DNA of 64,000 nucleotides from Candidatus Terraquivivens yellowstonensis. Its GTDB lineage: Archaea > Thermoproteota > Nitrososphaeria_A > Caldarchaeales > Wolframiiraptoraceae. Where the stretch lies: assembly GCA_023539445.1 (NCBI GenBank), contig JAKCEW010000003.1:62001-126000 (forward strand), given 5' to 3'. The position numbers were made by a program, and so were the translations under genes. This document shows positions 45,204 through 51,597 of the stretch, one piece after another. Below the pieces are notes generated by a model. The model had not been told where the DNA came from. It made no database searches and saw only the letters and a program-made list of their open reading frames with translations. Within the stretch, counting starts at the first letter, position 1. Each line of letters begins with the position of its first letter.

Positions 45204-46199
45204 TTATTCGTACTGCTCCGACGTTTTATACGCGCCTATTTCGGATGGATATGTCTTGAAAATCGCTTCCGCTTCATATCCGAGTTCTTTTAAGCGGTCT
45301 AAAACGTATCCCAAGGCCTCGTCTATTACCTGAGAATGCCGCGATATGCTGTACCACAAGATCCTTGACGGGCCGGCACCGCTTATCGTCTCTGCGATGC
45401 CGTACTTTTTGAATAGGTATAACTTCTCCTCCTCCAAAAACTTCCAGTCTATACCGCTTCCGTACACTTGAGAGTCTGCTCTAGACCTCTCAACGACGGT
45501 ATCCCATGCTATATTTCTCAGGATACAATCCACGTCACCCGTGACGAAGCCTACAGATACCGCAGCAACCCTAGAAACGTTCCCAACCATATCGCTCTTG
45601 TGGACGAAGTCGGGGACAGCCTTCCTTGCATCCCTCGTGGATTTCTTCTCGACGTTCGGAACTATGACGACGGTACCTAGGTCGGATGGTGGTCTGAAAC
45701 TATAAACGCGTGGCATACCGGTGATGTAATCCCTTACCACGATGTTAAACCCTCCGCATACCGAGGCAGAAACATTGTCCATATGCCCTTCTGGCTCACC
45801 ATATGATGCATAATGAACCATATCATCTTTTGAGAGGCCCAAAGATAACAACTCGTTCGCCGCTACAACAGCACCAGCAGCCTCCGCGCCGGATAGTCCG
45901 AGGCCTTTCTTCGGAGGTATGTCAACATACACTACCATCTCAAGCCCTTCATTGATGTCGTACTTGGCCATAAGTGCCCTGAGGGCCCTGCAACCGGAGT
46001 GGGTTTCTGGATCGGCATTGACAGATCCTCCATACTTGCCCTTGAGTAAAACCCTTATCCCATCGCCGTCGCTGAGCGACAGGCTCACCCTTAGGGACGG
46101 TTCCCTGAGCGCTATGGAAAGCACGTCGAAACCCGGCCCGAGGTTGGCAGAGCTAGAAGGGACCCATACGGTTACGGCGTTCCACCTTCTCATACGCAT
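45204..46199 (-). CDS. thrB: Homoserine kinase
   Basis: 331 residues, GHMP kinase that phosphorylates homoserine for threonine synthesis. VPSSSANLGPGFDVLSIAL is the N-terminal motif; PPKKGLGLSGAEAAGAVVAA is the nucleotide loop; ISGAGPSRILWY the C-terminal motif. Start set at ATG 46199, two codons before another Met. A TATA-like CTTAGATAC about 25 bases upstream fits a leaderless start; a TTG-initiated 20-residue extension to 46259 looks unlike any family member. Confidence 0.9.
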   Translation of the reverse strand: MRMRRWNAVTVWVPSSSANLGPGFDVLSIALREPSLRVSLSLSDGDGIRVLLKGKYGGSVNADPETHSGCRALRALMAKYDINEGLEMVVYVDIPPKKGLGLSGAEAAGAVVAANELLSLGLSKDDMVHYASYGEPEGHMDNVSASVCGGFNIVVRDYITGMPRVYSFRPPSDLGTVVIVPNVEKKSTRDARKAVPDFVHKSDMVGNVSRVAAVSVGFVTGDVDCILRNIAWDTVVERSRADSQVYGSGIDWKFLEEEKLYLFKKYGIAETISGAGPSRILWYSISRHSQVIDEALGYVLDRLKELGYEAEAIFKTYPSEIGAYKTSEQYE

Positions 46200-46360
46200 G
46201 CATAACAGCTTATGGGCAGTATCTAAGCATAACCGTGAGGCCGTCTCCGAATATGACAAAAATGTGCATTCAGGAGGGGGTGTTTGAATTATTCCGGGTT
46301 AGAAAGTTGCTTTTTGAGACGTATCCTCGGTTTTACGTTGAGCATTTTTGTGCACCAATT

Positions 46361-46422
46361 ATTAAATACAATCGATTTTTGTAAAAACCCCAAGGTTGTG
46401 GGGCATGTGCCTTTGGCAGTAA
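46361..46422 (+). promoter_or_regulatory. trp operon promoter and putative Trp-rich leader with frameshift site
   Basis: TATA box ATTAAATA at 46361-46368 predicts a start near 46390. Just downstream a short reading frame, TTG at 46396 or ATG at 46405, ends with TAA at 46420-46422. It reads Met/Leu-Trp-Gly-Met-Cys-Leu-Trp-Gln and has two Trp codons in eight. The last part is CTT-TGG-C; slipping +1 there joins the trpE frame. A small stem CCCCA/TGGGG (46388-46403) overlaps the leader. See the finding on this site. Confidence 0.5.
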
Positions 46423-47782
46423 CCAAGAATATGAATGCCCGAAGTTTAAGGACGTATACACAGAATTATCACCGATTGAAGTCTTCATAAACCTGAGCGA
46501 GCATTACGAGTACGCATATCTCATAGAGTTTGCAAATTCAAAAAGCAGAGTTGCTCGGCATTGCTTAGTAGGCTTTGACCCTCTGAAGACCATCGTATTC
46601 AAGGATAGCGAGTGTATCGTTAAGTCGCCTGATGGGGTATTACGTAAAAGAACGTTTGAACCCTTGCAAAGCCTGAGAGAGTTTGCGAGTCCGATACGCC
46701 GCGACAGAATGCGGTTAGGTTTTGCTGGCGGTGCTGTTGGTTACGTGTCCTATGATTTGGTTAGATACTTAGAAAGGTTGCCTCGGAGAAGTATTGACGA
46801 TCATGGATTTCCAGATATGGAATTTGGAGTATATTACGATGGGCTGTTGTTCGATGGAAAGAACGGAAAGGTATGCTACTACTATCTTGGAAAGGATAGA
46901 CTTGACGATGTTATGCATTTACTCGTAAAAAGACCCGACCGACAATTCTTTTCGCATACAGAGCTTAGGCCCAATGTCAGAAAGGAAGAATTCATGTCCA
47001 TGGTAGAGGTTACTAAAGAATACATAGCCGCTGGCGATGTGTTCCAAGTTGTCTTATCAAAAAAATACAGTTTTAATGTTGAAGGAAACGTTGTAGCGTT
47101 TTATTCAGCACTGCGCAATCTCAATCCCTCTCCGTACATGTACATCCTAAAGATGGGGAAGAGGTACATCGTCGGCTCCAGTCCAGAGGCGCTCTTCAGG
47201 TTACATGACGGTTTTGTCGAAACGATGCCCATCGCTGGTACGAGACCGCGTGGAAATGATAGGAAGTTGAGAAAAGATTTGCTTAGTGATCCGAAAGAAC
47301 TTTCAGAACACATGATGCTCGTCGACCTTGCAAGGAACGATCTGGGCAAGATTTCAAAGTTTGGTAGCGTACGGGTCTTGGAGTTGAAGAAGGTCTACAA
47401 GTACAGTCATGTGCTCCATATGGTTTCAAGGGTCGTTGGTGAGCTTAGGGAGGGTTACGATTGTTACGATGCGCTCAGAGCCGTGTTTCCAGCAGGCACA
47501 GTAACGGGGGCACCAAAGGTGAGGGCCATGGAAATCATAGAAGAGTTAGAACCTACGAGAAGAGGACCTTATGCTGGCGCAGTCGGTTACGTATCCTTTA
47601 ACGGCGATTCCAACTTTGCAATAACAATCAGGACGATGTTCGTTAACGATGGTAGGGCCTACATTCAAGCAGGCGCAGGCATAGTTGCGGACTCGAATCC
47701 AGAAAAAGAATGGATGGAGACTGAGCATAAACTTGCCCCACTTGTGGAGGCGTTAAAAATATCCAGCGGTGAGAAGTTATGA
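46405..47782 (+). CDS. trpE: Anthranilate synthase component I (5' end needs +1 shift or correction)
   Basis: Uses chorismate and ammonia from TrpG to make anthranilate. The catalytic half is complete: GGAVGYVSYDLVR, SSPEALFRL, PIAGTRPRG, EHMMLVDLARNDLG, YSHVLHMVSRV, PAGTVTGAPKVRAMEI and GAGIVADSNP. The first canonical in-frame start is TTG 46664 (372 residues). Yet the same frame carries clear TrpE N-terminal sequence upstream (TELSPIEVFINLSEHYEYAY.., then CLVGFDPLKT) back to about 46415 with no ATG, GTG or TTG. A +1 shift at 46413-46415 from the ATG at 46405 gives a protein of about 458 residues, a normal length. TrpG overlaps its stop (ATGA). Confidence 0.85.
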
Positions 47783-48360
47783 AGGTCCTTATCATAGACA
47801 ACTACGACTCTTTCGTTTACAACTTAGTCCAGTACGTCGGCGAATTGGGTGGAAACCCCATCGTGTACAGAAACGATGAAATAACTTTAGAGCACGTTAG
47901 GATTCTGGAACCTGATAGGATAATCATATCACCAGGCCCTGGATGTCCCCAAGACCCAAAGTACATCGGTTCATGTATTGATATAATCAGAGAACTAGGT
48001 CCCAAGATACCTATACTAGGCGTTTGCTTAGGACATCAGAGCATAATCTACGCTTTCGGCGGTAAGATTGTAAAGGCAAAAAGGCTCATGCATGGAAAGA
48101 CCAGCCTTATCAAGCACGATGGTACGGGTCTTTTCAGAAACGTTAAGAATCCTTTAAGGGTCGCTCGATATCACTCTCTCTGCGGAGATAGAGAATCTCT
48201 ACCCTCATGCCTCGTAATTACGGCTGAATCGATCGAGGACCATGAAATCATGGGCGTTCGTCATGTAGAGTATCCCATAGAGGGCGTACAGTTCCATCCA
48301 GAATCCGTGATGAGCGAGGAAGGGAAAAAGATTCTGAAGAATTTCTTGGAGGGTTTTTGA
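47779..48360 (+). CDS. trpG: Anthranilate synthase component II (glutamine amidotransferase)
   Basis: 193 residues. NYDSFVYNLVQYVGELGG at the start, SPGPGCPQDP, nucleophile Cys in LGVCLGHQSI, and His-Glu of the triad in VQFHPESVMS. It supplies ammonia to TrpE. Overlaps trpE by 4 bases and ends one base before trpD. Confidence 0.96.
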   Translation: MKVLIIDNYDSFVYNLVQYVGELGGNPIVYRNDEITLEHVRILEPDRIIISPGPGCPQDPKYIGSCIDIIRELGPKIPILGVCLGHQSIIYAFGGKIVKAKRLMHGKTSLIKHDGTGLFRNVKNPLRVARYHSLCGDRESLPSCLVITAESIEDHEIMGVRHVEYPIEGVQFHPESVMSEEGKKILKNFLEGF

Positions 48361-48361
48361 T

Positions 48362-49411
48362 ATGTTTACGGAAATTCTTAGAAAGCTTGTTGAAGGTTAC
48401 GACTTACGCTATGATGAAGCCGAGGGTGCTATGAGGAGCATAATGGATGGAAATGTTACTAATGCTCAGCTCGCAAGTTTCTTGACAGCTATCAGAATGA
48501 AAGGAGAGACCGTCACGGAGCTCACAGCATTCATAAAAGTTATGAAAGAATACTGTCGCAAGGTTAGACCTAAGATAAACGAGAGACTTGTAGACGTATG
48601 CGGAACCGGCGGTGACAGGATTAAAACATTCAACATAAGCACCGTCGCGGCTTTCGTTATCGCTGGGGCGGGCGTCAAGGTAGCAAAGCATGGAAATAGA
48701 GCGGTTTCCGGGAAATGCGGCAGCGCCGATTTGCTTGAAATGTTTGGCTTAAACCTTGAGCAAGATCCTAAATCGGTCGAAAGGGCTATCGAAGAGATCG
48801 GTATAGGTTTCATGTACGCCCCGCATTTCCATCCAGCTATGAGTAACGCTCAACAAGTAAGAAAGGAGATAGGTATAAGGACCGTATTCAACCTTATCGG
48901 GCCGCTTGCGAACCCGGCTGATGTGAAAGCACAGTTATTGGGTGTATGCGATGAGAGAGTCATGGATACGCTAATACGTGTCATGATGAACCTAGGATGC
49001 GAGGAGGCCTTTGTCGTACACGGTCTTAATGGTTTGGACGAGGTTTCGATAATTGGTAAAACGAAGGTCATTTGGTTAAGGAACAAAGATGTAAGGACGC
49101 TAGAGTTGATGCCAAAGGATTTTGGCGTCGAGTCCTGCAAACAGGAAGAGCTAGAAATCAGAACACGAGAAGAGGCAGCACAGGTAGCTTTCATGGTTCT
49201 GAATGGTGAGAATGGCCCTAAAAAAGATGCGGTCTTAGTCAATGCGGCTTTAGGCATAATATTGGGGGGACGGGCTGACGACTTTCTTGAAGGCATGGAG
49301 TTGGCGAGAGAATCCTTGGACAGCGGTAGGGCATACAAAAAGCTGAAGGATTTGATAAAACTCAACGGCGATCCGTCAAAACTTGAGAGGATGGAGGAGA
49401 TTTATGGGTAA
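48362..49411 (+). CDS. trpD: Anthranilate phosphoribosyltransferase
   Basis: 349 residues. Joins anthranilate to PRPP. VCGTGGDRIKTFNISTVAAFVIAG (PRPP loop), KHGNRAVSGKCGSADLLE, GIGFMYAPHFHPAM and VFNLIGPLANP are the family motifs. ATG start at 48362 directly after trpG. The trpC start lies inside its last codons. Confidence 0.96.
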   Translation: MFTEILRKLVEGYDLRYDEAEGAMRSIMDGNVTNAQLASFLTAIRMKGETVTELTAFIKVMKEYCRKVRPKINERLVDVCGTGGDRIKTFNISTVAAFVIAGAGVKVAKHGNRAVSGKCGSADLLEMFGLNLEQDPKSVERAIEEIGIGFMYAPHFHPAMSNAQQVRKEIGIRTVFNLIGPLANPADVKAQLLGVCDERVMDTLIRVMMNLGCEEAFVVHGLNGLDEVSIIGKTKVIWLRNKDVRTLELMPKDFGVESCKQEELEIRTREEAAQVAFMVLNGENGPKKDAVLVNAALGIILGGRADDFLEGMELARESLDSGRAYKKLKDLIKLNGDPSKLERMEEIYG

Positions 49412-50198
49412 TTTCCTTAAAGTCTTGGTCGAAAAGGCCATCGAGCGTGTAAAGAATGGTTATTATGATATACTCCCATCAATAACTTTTTCAAGAGCTC
49501 CGAGTTTAAAAGGCGCGATACTCTCTTGCAAAGCCATACCCATCATAGCTGAGCTGAAACAAGCATCACCGACTATGGGATGGCGTGTGTATGGGGATGT
49601 TAAAGCCATAGTTAAGGCCATGGAGCATGGTGGAGCCGTAGGCATATCGGTTTTGACTGAGAAAGAGTTTTTTGATGGCTCGTTGGAGAAGTTAAGGGTC
49701 GTCAGAGAAACCGTCAGCATACCCATACTTATGAAGGATATAATCGTTAACGAGATACAATTGAGGGCAGCATCAAGGCTGGGAGCGAGTGCCGTCCTTC
49801 TAATCAAAAAGGTTTACGACCAAAGGATGTGTGGCGAAGATTTGGACGAGATGATAAAAATTGCTCACTCATTAGGTCTTGAGGTGCTTTTGGAGACGCA
49901 TACTGAAGAAGAATTTCTTTCGGGTATGGATACGGAGGCGGACATGCTGGGAATAAACAATCGCGATTTGGAGACGCTAAGGGTCGACGTCGGTGTTTCC
50001 GAGCGCATACTTAGTAACGTGAAGGCCAAACGTAAACCGGTCGTATGCGAGAGCGGTATAAGCAGTCCTGACCAAGTTATTCTTCTAAAAAATCTTGGAG
50101 CGGATGCGTTCTTGATTGGGACGTCCATAATGACATCAGTCGATATCGAGAGCAAGGTAAGGGAATTTGTGAGGGCCTATGACTTACGTCAAGGTTAA
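49404..50198 (+). CDS. trpC: Indole-3-glycerol phosphate synthase
   Basis: 264 residues from ATG 49404, which overlaps the trpD stop by 8 bases; a TTG at 49383 is less likely. TIM barrel: IAELKQASPTMGWR (catalytic Glu/Lys), SVLTEKEFFDGSLE, LMKDIIVNEIQLRAASRLGASAVLLI, LEVLLETHTEEE, GINNRDLETL and VCESGISS. Closes the indole ring. The next gene, trpF, starts 20 bases before its end. Confidence 0.95.
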   Translation: MGNFLKVLVEKAIERVKNGYYDILPSITFSRAPSLKGAILSCKAIPIIAELKQASPTMGWRVYGDVKAIVKAMEHGGAVGISVLTEKEFFDGSLEKLRVVRETVSIPILMKDIIVNEIQLRAASRLGASAVLLIKKVYDQRMCGEDLDEMIKIAHSLGLEVLLETHTEEEFLSGMDTEADMLGINNRDLETLRVDVGVSERILSNVKAKRKPVVCESGISSPDQVILLKNLGADAFLIGTSIMTSVDIESKVREFVRAYDLRQG

Positions 50199-50823
50199 AA
50201 TCTGTGGTATAACGCGTGAACAAGACTTGGCGGCCGCTGTGGATGCTGGTGCCGATGCTGTAGGGTTCGTTGTAGCCTCGCCATTATCACCAAGAAATTT
50301 GACATATGAAATGGCCAAGGATTTGATAAAGAGCGTGCCACTATTCGTGGATAGCGTGGTAGTGACTGTTACGTCAAACATCGATGAGCTGCTTAGAATT
50401 TGTAATGTGCTTAGACCCTCTGCGCTACAGGTACACAGCAATAATCTTCCGGATGCAGAAAAATTGCGGAGTATGTTACGTGGTATCAGGTTGATAAAAG
50501 CGGTTAACGTCCGTGAAATCTTCGATATCGAATATCTGAAGCATTCGGTCAGCGAATTCGACGCCATATTGCTCGATTCTCTCGCCGGAGGATATGGTGG
50601 CCAAGGTAAGGTTCACGACTGGGAGCTAAGTAGGAAGATCGTTGAATATCTTTATCCTAAACCTGTGATGCTAGCCGGTGGCCTAACGCCTGAAAACGTG
50701 GCGGATGCCGTACGGATTGTGAGACCTTATGCCGTTGACGTATCGTCTGGCGTAGAAACAGATCCCGGAATAAAGGACAAAAGGAAGATTTTTGAATTCG
50801 TAAAGAATGCGAGGCGGTGTTGA
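50179..50823 (+). CDS. trpF: Phosphoribosylanthranilate isomerase
   Basis: 214 residues. VKICGITREQDLAAAVDAGADAVGFV (catalytic Cys), SPRNLT, LQVHSNN, LLDSLAGGYGGQGKVHDW (catalytic Asp region) and MLAGGLTPENVADAV. ATG at 50179 inside the end of trpC. Its TGA (50821-50823) is directly followed by frame-matched trpA sequence; see trpA. Confidence 0.95.
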   Translation: MTYVKVKICGITREQDLAAAVDAGADAVGFVVASPLSPRNLTYEMAKDLIKSVPLFVDSVVVTVTSNIDELLRICNVLRPSALQVHSNNLPDAEKLRSMLRGIRLIKAVNVREIFDIEYLKHSVSEFDAILLDSLAGGYGGQGKVHDWELSRKIVEYLYPKPVMLAGGLTPENVADAVRIVRPYAVDVSSGVETDPGIKDKRKIFEFVKNARRC

Positions 50824-50877
50824 GGTACGTTAGGCACACAAGAAATTACGAAAAAGAAGAAATTTCTGGTCGCATAC

Positions 50878-51597
50878 ATGACTTTGGGTTATCCGACGCC
50901 CGACGCATTCATGGAATATTCTGACATACTCAAAAGCTCCGGTGCCGATATATTGGAGCTCGGCATACCACCAAAAATTGCCATTTACGACGGTACGAGC
51001 ATAAGGTTGTCGTACTGGAGAGTAAGGGAGCAAGGCATAGAGAAGGATACAGCATTAGAAATAGCTAGAAACGTAAGCGCAAGAAAGATCCTCTTGTCTT
51101 ACCTAAACACCGCTGGACAGTTAACGGAATTCATGTACTCTGTGGCAAAGAGCGGGGCTTTAGGTGCTCTCATACCGGATCTGGGCATGATGGGGGTTGT
51201 GGCCTTAGAGGAATATGCGAAAGCATGCGATGCTGCATCTCTTGAAAAATTCTTCTTCGCAAACTACAACTATCCAGATAACATAATTAGGAGCATGGCG
51301 AGCTACAACCCTGCGTTCGTCTATATTGGGATATCATCCATTACGGGCGAGGTAGCTTACATAGAGCCAGCCAAGTCCATCAGTAGGGCTAGGGAATTAA
51401 TCGGCAACACACCTCTGGCGGTCGGTTTCGGTATAAGGGATCCGTCCTATGCGAAAAAGTTAGCGAGTATTGTCGATGGGATAGTCGTAGGTAGCGAAAT
51501 CGTCAACATAATAGAAGAGAATGCTGCTGCAGTTGCAAAAAAGAAAGTATCAGACTTTGTAGCTTCGCTTAAGTCCGTTTTGGAAGACGTATCCTAA
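50878..51597 (+). CDS. trpA: Tryptophan synthase alpha chain (start unclear)
   Basis: 239 residues from the first canonical in-frame ATG. TrpA cleaves indole-glycerol phosphate and passes indole to TrpB. GADILELGIPPKIAIYDG keeps the catalytic Glu and Asp and closely resembles Sulfolobus TrpA (YMTLGYP, LELGIPPK). But this ATG falls within the first core strand, KFLVAYMTLGYP, and the frame continues upstream to the trpF stop without any ATG/GTG/TTG. A TTG at 50819 overlapping the trpF stop is in the frame one base off, so a one-base indel in the A-rich stretch near 50850 or a non-standard start is likely. No trpB is present here. Confidence 0.85.
   Translation: MTLGYPTPDAFMEYSDILKSSGADILELGIPPKIAIYDGTSIRLSYWRVREQGIEKDTALEIARNVSARKILLSYLNTAGQLTEFMYSVAKSGALGALIPDLGMMGVVALEEYAKACDAASLEKFFFANYNYPDNIIRSMASYNPAFVYIGISSITGEVAYIEPAKSISRARELIGNTPLAVGFGIRDPSYAKKLASIVDGIVVGSEIVNIIEENAAAVAKKKVSDFVASLKSVLEDVS

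Follow-up and report, generated by a model that had tools for sequence, protein, structure and literature searches.

The trp operon and the trpE gene

The window analyzed here, a 64,000-nucleotide stretch of the Candidatus Terraquivivens yellowstonensis genome, carries a tryptophan operon in the order trpE-G-D-C-F-A (Table 1). Candidatus Wolframiiraptor allenii (L039) belongs to the family of this genome. A homoserine kinase (thrB-like) gene on the reverse strand (45204-46160) is divergent from the operon, and the trp promoter lies within the intergenic region common to both. The start of trpG overlaps the stop of trpE (ATGA), so the two genes are likely translationally coupled. There is no trpB between trpF and trpA (50823-50878), and it must therefore be located elsewhere or be missing. 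For trpA, the region 50824-50880 offers no standard start ahead of the conserved N-terminus KKKKFLVAYMTLGYP, while relatives have a TTG nearby and an ATA or ATG codon where the window reads ACA. When the other trp genes were checked, this weak trpA start was noted in the window, and no conserved shift was seen.

Table 1. Features of the trpE leader region and the trp operon; positions are those of the window.
Feature	Position	Strand	Basis
TATA box TATTAAATAC, trp operon promoter	46360-46369	+	invariant in six genus genomes
AAGGTT, likely Shine-Dalgarno (SD) sequence for ATG 46405	46392-46397	+	invariant in the genus
TTG, alternative upstream start	46396-46398	+	five of six genus genomes; TTA in L004
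GGGGCATG, putative internal SD-like stimulator overlapping the start codon	46400-46407	+	GGGG and ATG invariant in the genus
Leader ORF (frame 0), ATG TGC CTT TGG CAG TAA (MCLWQ*)	46405-46422	+	
Putative slip site CTT-TGG-C (P site, CTT to TTT; A site, Trp codon TGG to Gly codon GGC)	46411-46417	+	
trpE body, +1 frame (anthranilate synthase component I)	46415-47782	+	Pfam and NCBIfam matches
trpG	47779-48360	+	TIGR00566 above cut-off; sequence
trpD, trpC, trpF, trpA (operon remainder)	48362-51597	+	NCBIfam matches; ORFs

The trpE frame is open from 46385, directly after a TAA (46382-46384), to the TGA at 47780-47782. Its product has both the Anth_synt_I_N (PF04715, 1.9e-26) and the chorismate-binding domain (PF00425, 4.2e-93) and, together with the trp operon context, qualifies as TrpE, albeit the best NCBIfam match, TIGR01820 (TrpE-arch; 5.5e-144, 480.8 bits), did not reach the curated cut-off of 512. 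This match begins at residue 21 counted from the TTT at 46412. Recognizable homology thus extends back only to about 46472, not to about 46415 as the sequence-only reading had it, and positions 46415-46471 form an open, variable N-terminal extension.

The same reading had pointed out that this frame has no ATG, GTG, or TTG where the protein should begin, and indeed the first such codon is at 46664, well within the enzyme. The distance from the preceding stop to the first possible start is 93 codons, compared to a median of 7 for the 53 long ORFs of the window, with 35 as the next-highest value. Across 717 kb of the genome (622 ORFs), this was the longest start-less stretch for any supported gene; only two ORFs, themselves 135-191 codons in length, had longer ones, and both were judged spurious. 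A screen of the same 717 kb for a second gene of this design found the combination of motif (see below) and long start-less frame only at trpE.

The remaining start-less ORFs of the 717 kb were unsupported, had plausible downstream starts, or were candidates for an ATA start. One such case is a homologue of metE (cobalamin-independent methionine synthase; L257:19003-19300, G000:C5, ORF at C5:95006), which has no ATG, GTG, or TTG start: at one position, shortly after a GGAGGTG, four of the six genus genomes read ATA and two read ATG. AUA is thereby suggested as a natural start codon of metE. In an FtsX/MacB-like permease gene (L271:7293-8612, reverse strand), the domain begins before the first ATG, GTG, or TTG, so this gene of the same genome is likewise a candidate for non-standard initiation.

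The leader frame and its conservation in the genus

Immediately upstream of the enzyme body, one base off the trpE frame, the sequence reads TTG46396 TGG GGC ATG46405 TGC CTT46411 TGG46414 CAG TAA46420. The coordinates proposed earlier for this short leader, with its CTT-TGG-C and its stop, and for the GGGG at 46400-46403, proved correct. Two starts had been offered for it, and ATG 46405 is the likelier one, because TTG 46396 is replaced by TTA in a related genome (L004). The TATA box ends 36 nt upstream of this ATG in the window's genus. Such a distance leaves room for a short leader with AAGGTT included, and transcription is predicted to start near 46391, an inference from related loci of the leaderless kind, where the spacing is 22 nt (see below). 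AAGGTT is complementary to the 16S rRNA tail GGATCACCTCC of the same genome, and a gene for tRNA-Leu(GAG) is present as well (L252). As judged from its layout, the leader ORF would serve as the beginning of trpE and would also terminate a non-shifted product.

The string ATG-TGY-CTT-TGG-CA was kept in all six genomes of the genus, the TrpE proteins of which are 78-81% identical. The five other genomes retain AAGGTT..GGGG.ATGTG.CTTTGGCA without exception, and their leader frame ends 3-7 codons after the start of the slip codon. Alignment of relatives thus bore out the expectation that CTT-TGG is kept and that the leader frame closes soon after it; the single conserved stop codon also expected was not found, as either TAA or TGA is used at a varying distance. 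Conservation of one particular leader stop is not needed.

When codons beyond the site were compared pairwise, 264 of 541 differences in the trpE frame were synonymous and 277 non-synonymous, compared to 49/482 (of 531) and 102/443 (of 545) in the other two frames. The enzyme body is intact, and by this measure purifying selection acts on it. The null explanation given earlier, namely one extra T in the assembled CTTT, would account for the arrangement in a single genome, but six independent genomes of the genus and 122 loci in total (see below) carry the site. A decayed trpE, in turn, is contradicted by the intact body and by a synonymous excess specific to the trpE frame. Error or decay can therefore be dismissed for practical purposes.

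Occurrence of the motif across the phylum

The sample comprised 132 trpE loci from 20 families of Thermoproteota; Asgard archaea and most Euryarchaeota were outside it. A locus was counted if a start codon was followed in frame by a slip codon NTT and then TGG, with trpE lying one base ahead (TTT-GGN). This layout was present in 122 of the 132 loci and in 19 of the 20 families, in 68 distinct leader sequences, with Nitrosopumilus sp. b1, Candidatus Wolframiiraptor allenii, and Bathyarchaeota as named examples (L036, L039, L034, L037). In comparison, when the 150 nt upstream of the TrpE body were shuffled 100 times with dinucleotides kept, a mean of only 1.15 and a maximum of 4 matches per 132 loci were obtained.

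Typical leaders are MCLW, MGGHLW, MGEHLW, MGNRLW, MRDxVW, MGDLVW, and MNGGYLW, starting with ATG in 115 loci, TTG in 5, and GTG in 2. The slip codon is codon 3 to 7, and the one to five intervening codons pair with the 16S anti-SD tail. CTT is the most common slip codon (68 loci), followed by GTT (26), ATT (21), and TTT (7). The invariant TTTGG within the 122 loci is a product of the search criterion itself; the base 3' of TGG varies freely (C in 53, A in 44, G in 14, and T in 11 loci). A slip by +1 from NTT keeps the second and third anticodon pairs, and CUU also keeps the first, by wobble. Since NTT is followed by T in all 122 loci, at least two of the three pairs survive the slip, and the site qualifies as a conserved slippery site that allows re-pairing one base forward. 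GTT and ATT lose the first base pair on UUU, which counts against the mechanism proposed below.

Between the slip site and the TrpE body (2,322 codons over all loci), the trpE frame contains no stop codon, whereas the other two frames contain 170 and 218. The leader frame stops 2-48 codons beyond the slip codon, at a point that bears no constant relation to trpE. A test of single substitutions in the leader did not clearly separate the frames, probably because the SD-like element constrains the leader as well. Altogether, the locus has the overlapping frames, the start-less product frame, and the opening of that frame at the shift site which define a programmed +1 frameshift. A change of frame at trpE can be regarded as almost certain, although the trans-frame protein has not been demonstrated; the comparison of genomes supports it through the conservation of the arrangement, the slip site, the anti-SD pairing with its spacing, and the apparent absence of alternative starts.

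Starts in the trpE frame and promoter geometry

The trpE frame has no ATG, GTG, or TTG at all ahead of the enzyme body in 41 loci, and seven loci, three of them in the window's genus, also lack CTG, ATT, ATC, and ATA. In 11 loci, a stop codon stands directly 5' of the TTT (TAG-TTT-GG), so that translation of the trpE frame cannot enter from upstream in that frame. A check of ATG, GTG, TTG, CTG, ATT, ATC, and ATA as non-canonical trpE-frame starts gave no start common to the loci and none in three genus genomes.

Two promoter geometries were found outside the window's genus. In 43 loci, mainly of the MGGHLW type, a TATA box is located 22 nt before the leader-frame ATG; the bathyarchaeal type has it at about 42 nt. 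The 22-nt spacing implies that the mRNA of these Nitrosopumilaceae-type loci is probably leaderless, its 5' end being the leader-frame AUG itself.

These data bear on the possibility that TrpE simply starts in its own frame at a GTG or another weak codon, the ATG..LW of the leader frame being a coincidence or a regulatory mini-ORF. A GTG does occur three codons before the TTT in 59 of the 122 loci, for which the sequence by itself does not rule out a plain GTG start, and the ATA used for ATG in metE of the window's genus indicates that weak starts occur. However, that GTG is missing from the window's genus, and elsewhere it is a by-product of GGT-GGN or GGT-GAN in the SD-like element; where the leaderless mRNA would begin at the leader-frame AUG, a GTG four bases downstream is, by inference, an unlikely start. 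Taken with the 41, 7, and 11 loci described above, this makes an own-frame start very unlikely as the general explanation.

The putative stimulator and RNA structure

The 16S rRNA of the window genome ends with the anti-SD tail GGATCACCTCCT. Over the 122 loci, the mean energy of pairing between the anti-SD and 7-mers that end 3-4 nt upstream of the slip codon is -6.4 to -6.5 kcal/mol, in comparison with -0.2 kcal/mol in the downstream control. In the window's genus, the best pairing stretch, GGGGYATG, ends 4-5 nt before the CTT. The frameshift site of bacterial prfB is preceded by an AGGGGG element ending 3 nt before its CTTT (PMC12421855). An SD-like element some 3 nt upstream of the slip codon is thus present at trpE as well, and the analogy with prfB drawn in the sequence-only reading has gained support, in that the G-rich element pairs with the genome's own rRNA tail and stands at the prfB distance throughout the phylum.

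No conserved RNA structure was seen downstream of the site (mean z of -0.22 over 122 loci), and searches for a terminator hairpin, a riboswitch, or an Rfam element at the trp leader gave no matches, so the locus does not qualify as an attenuator. The remaining interest of attenuation is that a short peptide with a Trp codon does precede trpE and that the logic of Trp sensing would be alike: the leader peptide would terminate, and trpE would be expressed by re-initiation or by trpL-like control of transcription. Yet re-initiation has no start codon to use, the leader stop is not fixed in relation to trpE, and the trpE frame stays open exactly from the TTT, which leaves this explanation hardly any room.

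Loci without the motif and the possible role of TGG

Nearly all of the motif-less loci begin with an ordinary in-frame start: ATG in L135, L172, L193, and L194, and GTG in L009, L133, and probably L192. L147 is a simple in-frame fusion (MRNHLDNQTTK). L211 keeps MGEYLW-TTTGG but carries a further shift downstream. Genome G251 has two copies of trpE, one with an ordinary ATG (L135, G251:C34) and a second (L154, G251:C40) which reads ATG-GGT-GAT-CCA-CTT-TAG-C, with a stop codon in place of TGG. The F-G residues encoded at the shift site are missing from the non-shifted versions of TrpE and are therefore dispensable for the enzyme. The conserved element, as far as comparison can tell, is the TGG in the leader frame.

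The motif was also absent from 23 of 24 more distant Thermoproteota genomes (sulfolobus-type and others), most of which have an ordinary start near the N-terminus; the remaining one, G282, has MGDLVW*. Moreover, it was not found in two euryarchaeal-type TrpE genes (Methanocellales and Hadesarchaea), in archaeon L038, or in nine bacterial trpE genes.

These loci are relevant to the question of whether the shift responds to tryptophan or is constitutive, the NTT-T and the SD-like element causing slippage at a fixed rate with TGG merely as a slow codon. The CTT-TAG of the second copy in G251 is compatible with a constitutive shift, as is the example of Ty1, which uses CUU-AGG-C with a slow A-site codon, as given in a 2016 review (PMC5009743). 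On the other hand, every one of the 122 loci that meet the criterion has the Trp codon in the A site, in a gene for making Trp, and L211 and L298 share it. Where the shift was lost, the F-G residues went with it, so the Gly is not retained for the sake of the enzyme, and a constitutive shift, we infer, would not need TGG to be kept across so many families. A shift without sensing is thus possible but unlikely.

Proposed mechanism

We favor the reading that a programmed +1 frameshift, responsive to charged tRNA-Trp, governs the expression of trpE. This reading is very probably correct, albeit without support so far from experiment, proteomics, or ribosome profiling. The sensing of Trp, for which we hold the same high confidence, is inferred. 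So are the route (P-site slippage), the signal (Trp-tRNA), and the direction in which regulation works.

The ribosome would initiate at ATG 46405 and read three codons; at that point, tRNA-Leu would occupy the P site on CUU, and UGG would stand in the A site. Pairing of the internal SD-like stretch with the 16S tail a few nucleotides behind the slip codon would strain the complex and favor forward slippage. With Trp-tRNA scarce, the P-site tRNA would re-pair from CUU to UUU, GGC would enter the A site, and trpE would be translated (MCL-GSNQ...). The predicted product begins with MCL followed by GSNQEYECPKFKDVYTELSPIEVF, and the trans-frame N-terminal peptide predicted for the window species is MCLGSNQEYECPK. 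With ample Trp-tRNA, UGG would be decoded, and the ribosome would stop at the UAA two codons later. Expression of trpG would follow that of trpE by coupling through the ATGA overlap. The committed enzyme of the pathway would thereby come under direct negative feedback.

Comparison with known systems

The closest parallel is prfB. In prfB, and by inference in trpE, a +1 P-site slip takes place near the 5' end of the gene on an NTT codon followed by T (CTT in more than half of the trpE loci), with an SD-like element about 3 nt upstream and a slow A-site as the trigger, and the product corrects the shortage by negative feedback. In trpE, however, the A-site codon is the sense codon TGG, the factor sensed would be Trp-tRNA rather than RF2, and the hosts are archaea, not bacteria. 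Moreover, the slip codon may be GTT, ATT, or TTT, the leader has 2-6 codons before it, and the mRNA is sometimes probably leaderless. Since a member of the prfB family has RF2 as its product and an in-frame stop codon as its A-site codon, the trpE device does not belong to that family, though it works alike.

With Ty1 (CUU-AGG-C) and with hungry-codon shifts in the laboratory, it shares the CUU to UUU movement by +1 while an undersupplied sense codon waits. Ty1 uses a constitutively rare tRNA to set the ratio of two products, whereas trpE would sense an end product; hungry-codon shifts are known as errors of starvation, whereas the trpE site would be a conserved sensor. The trpL, T-box, and TRAP systems of bacteria likewise control trpE by the supply of Trp or charged tRNA-Trp. 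Unlike these, the archaeal trpE has no terminator, riboswitch, or binding protein that could be found; the switching would be done by the reading frame itself, with the leader codons forming the enzyme's N-terminus.

Archaea are already known to leave the triplet frame in a programmed way, from a -1 shift in the Saccharolobus alpha-fucosidase and from putative viral and magnesium chelatase cases (PMC8211752, PMC5009743). The known cases are -1, isolated or only predicted (one viral +1 has been suggested), and without amino-acid sensing, whereas the trpE shift is of the +1 kind, has the build of a regulatory device, and is retained in much of the phylum. Among the cases in a 2021 review of archaeal recoding, a single -1 frameshift counts as demonstrated, and none is a +1 shift in a cellular gene (PMC8211752). 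The available part of the 2016 review treats hungry-codon shifts mainly as effects of starvation and has no case from trpE or the trp operon (PMC5009743), and trpE does not appear in a survey covering 1106 prokaryotic genomes (PMC3711429). Overall, no published precedent for a Trp-sensing trpE frameshift was found in the open literature, most subscription papers and preprints being outside the search.

Significance

We know of no earlier natural amino-acid-sensing programmed frameshift of a biosynthetic gene, and, if true, this would to our knowledge be the first, as well as the first regulatory +1 frameshift in a cellular archaeal gene. Where gene callers choose an in-frame start, the annotated beginning of TrpE is probably wrong, and the frameshift is directly testable with reporters and in existing proteomes. 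If borne out, it would extend the principle of prfB from stop to sense codons, with charged tRNA-Trp as the signal, and add a deeply conserved cellular +1 frameshift to the archaea. It is likely, with slightly less assurance than the sensing itself, that this is an ancient archaeal device of Nitrososphaeria and Bathyarchaeia-type lineages, in which the reading frame of a biosynthetic enzyme acts as the sensor through a +1 shift at the codon for the end product. It would then show how Trp synthesis is controlled in abundant archaea, including the ammonia oxidizers of sea and soil.
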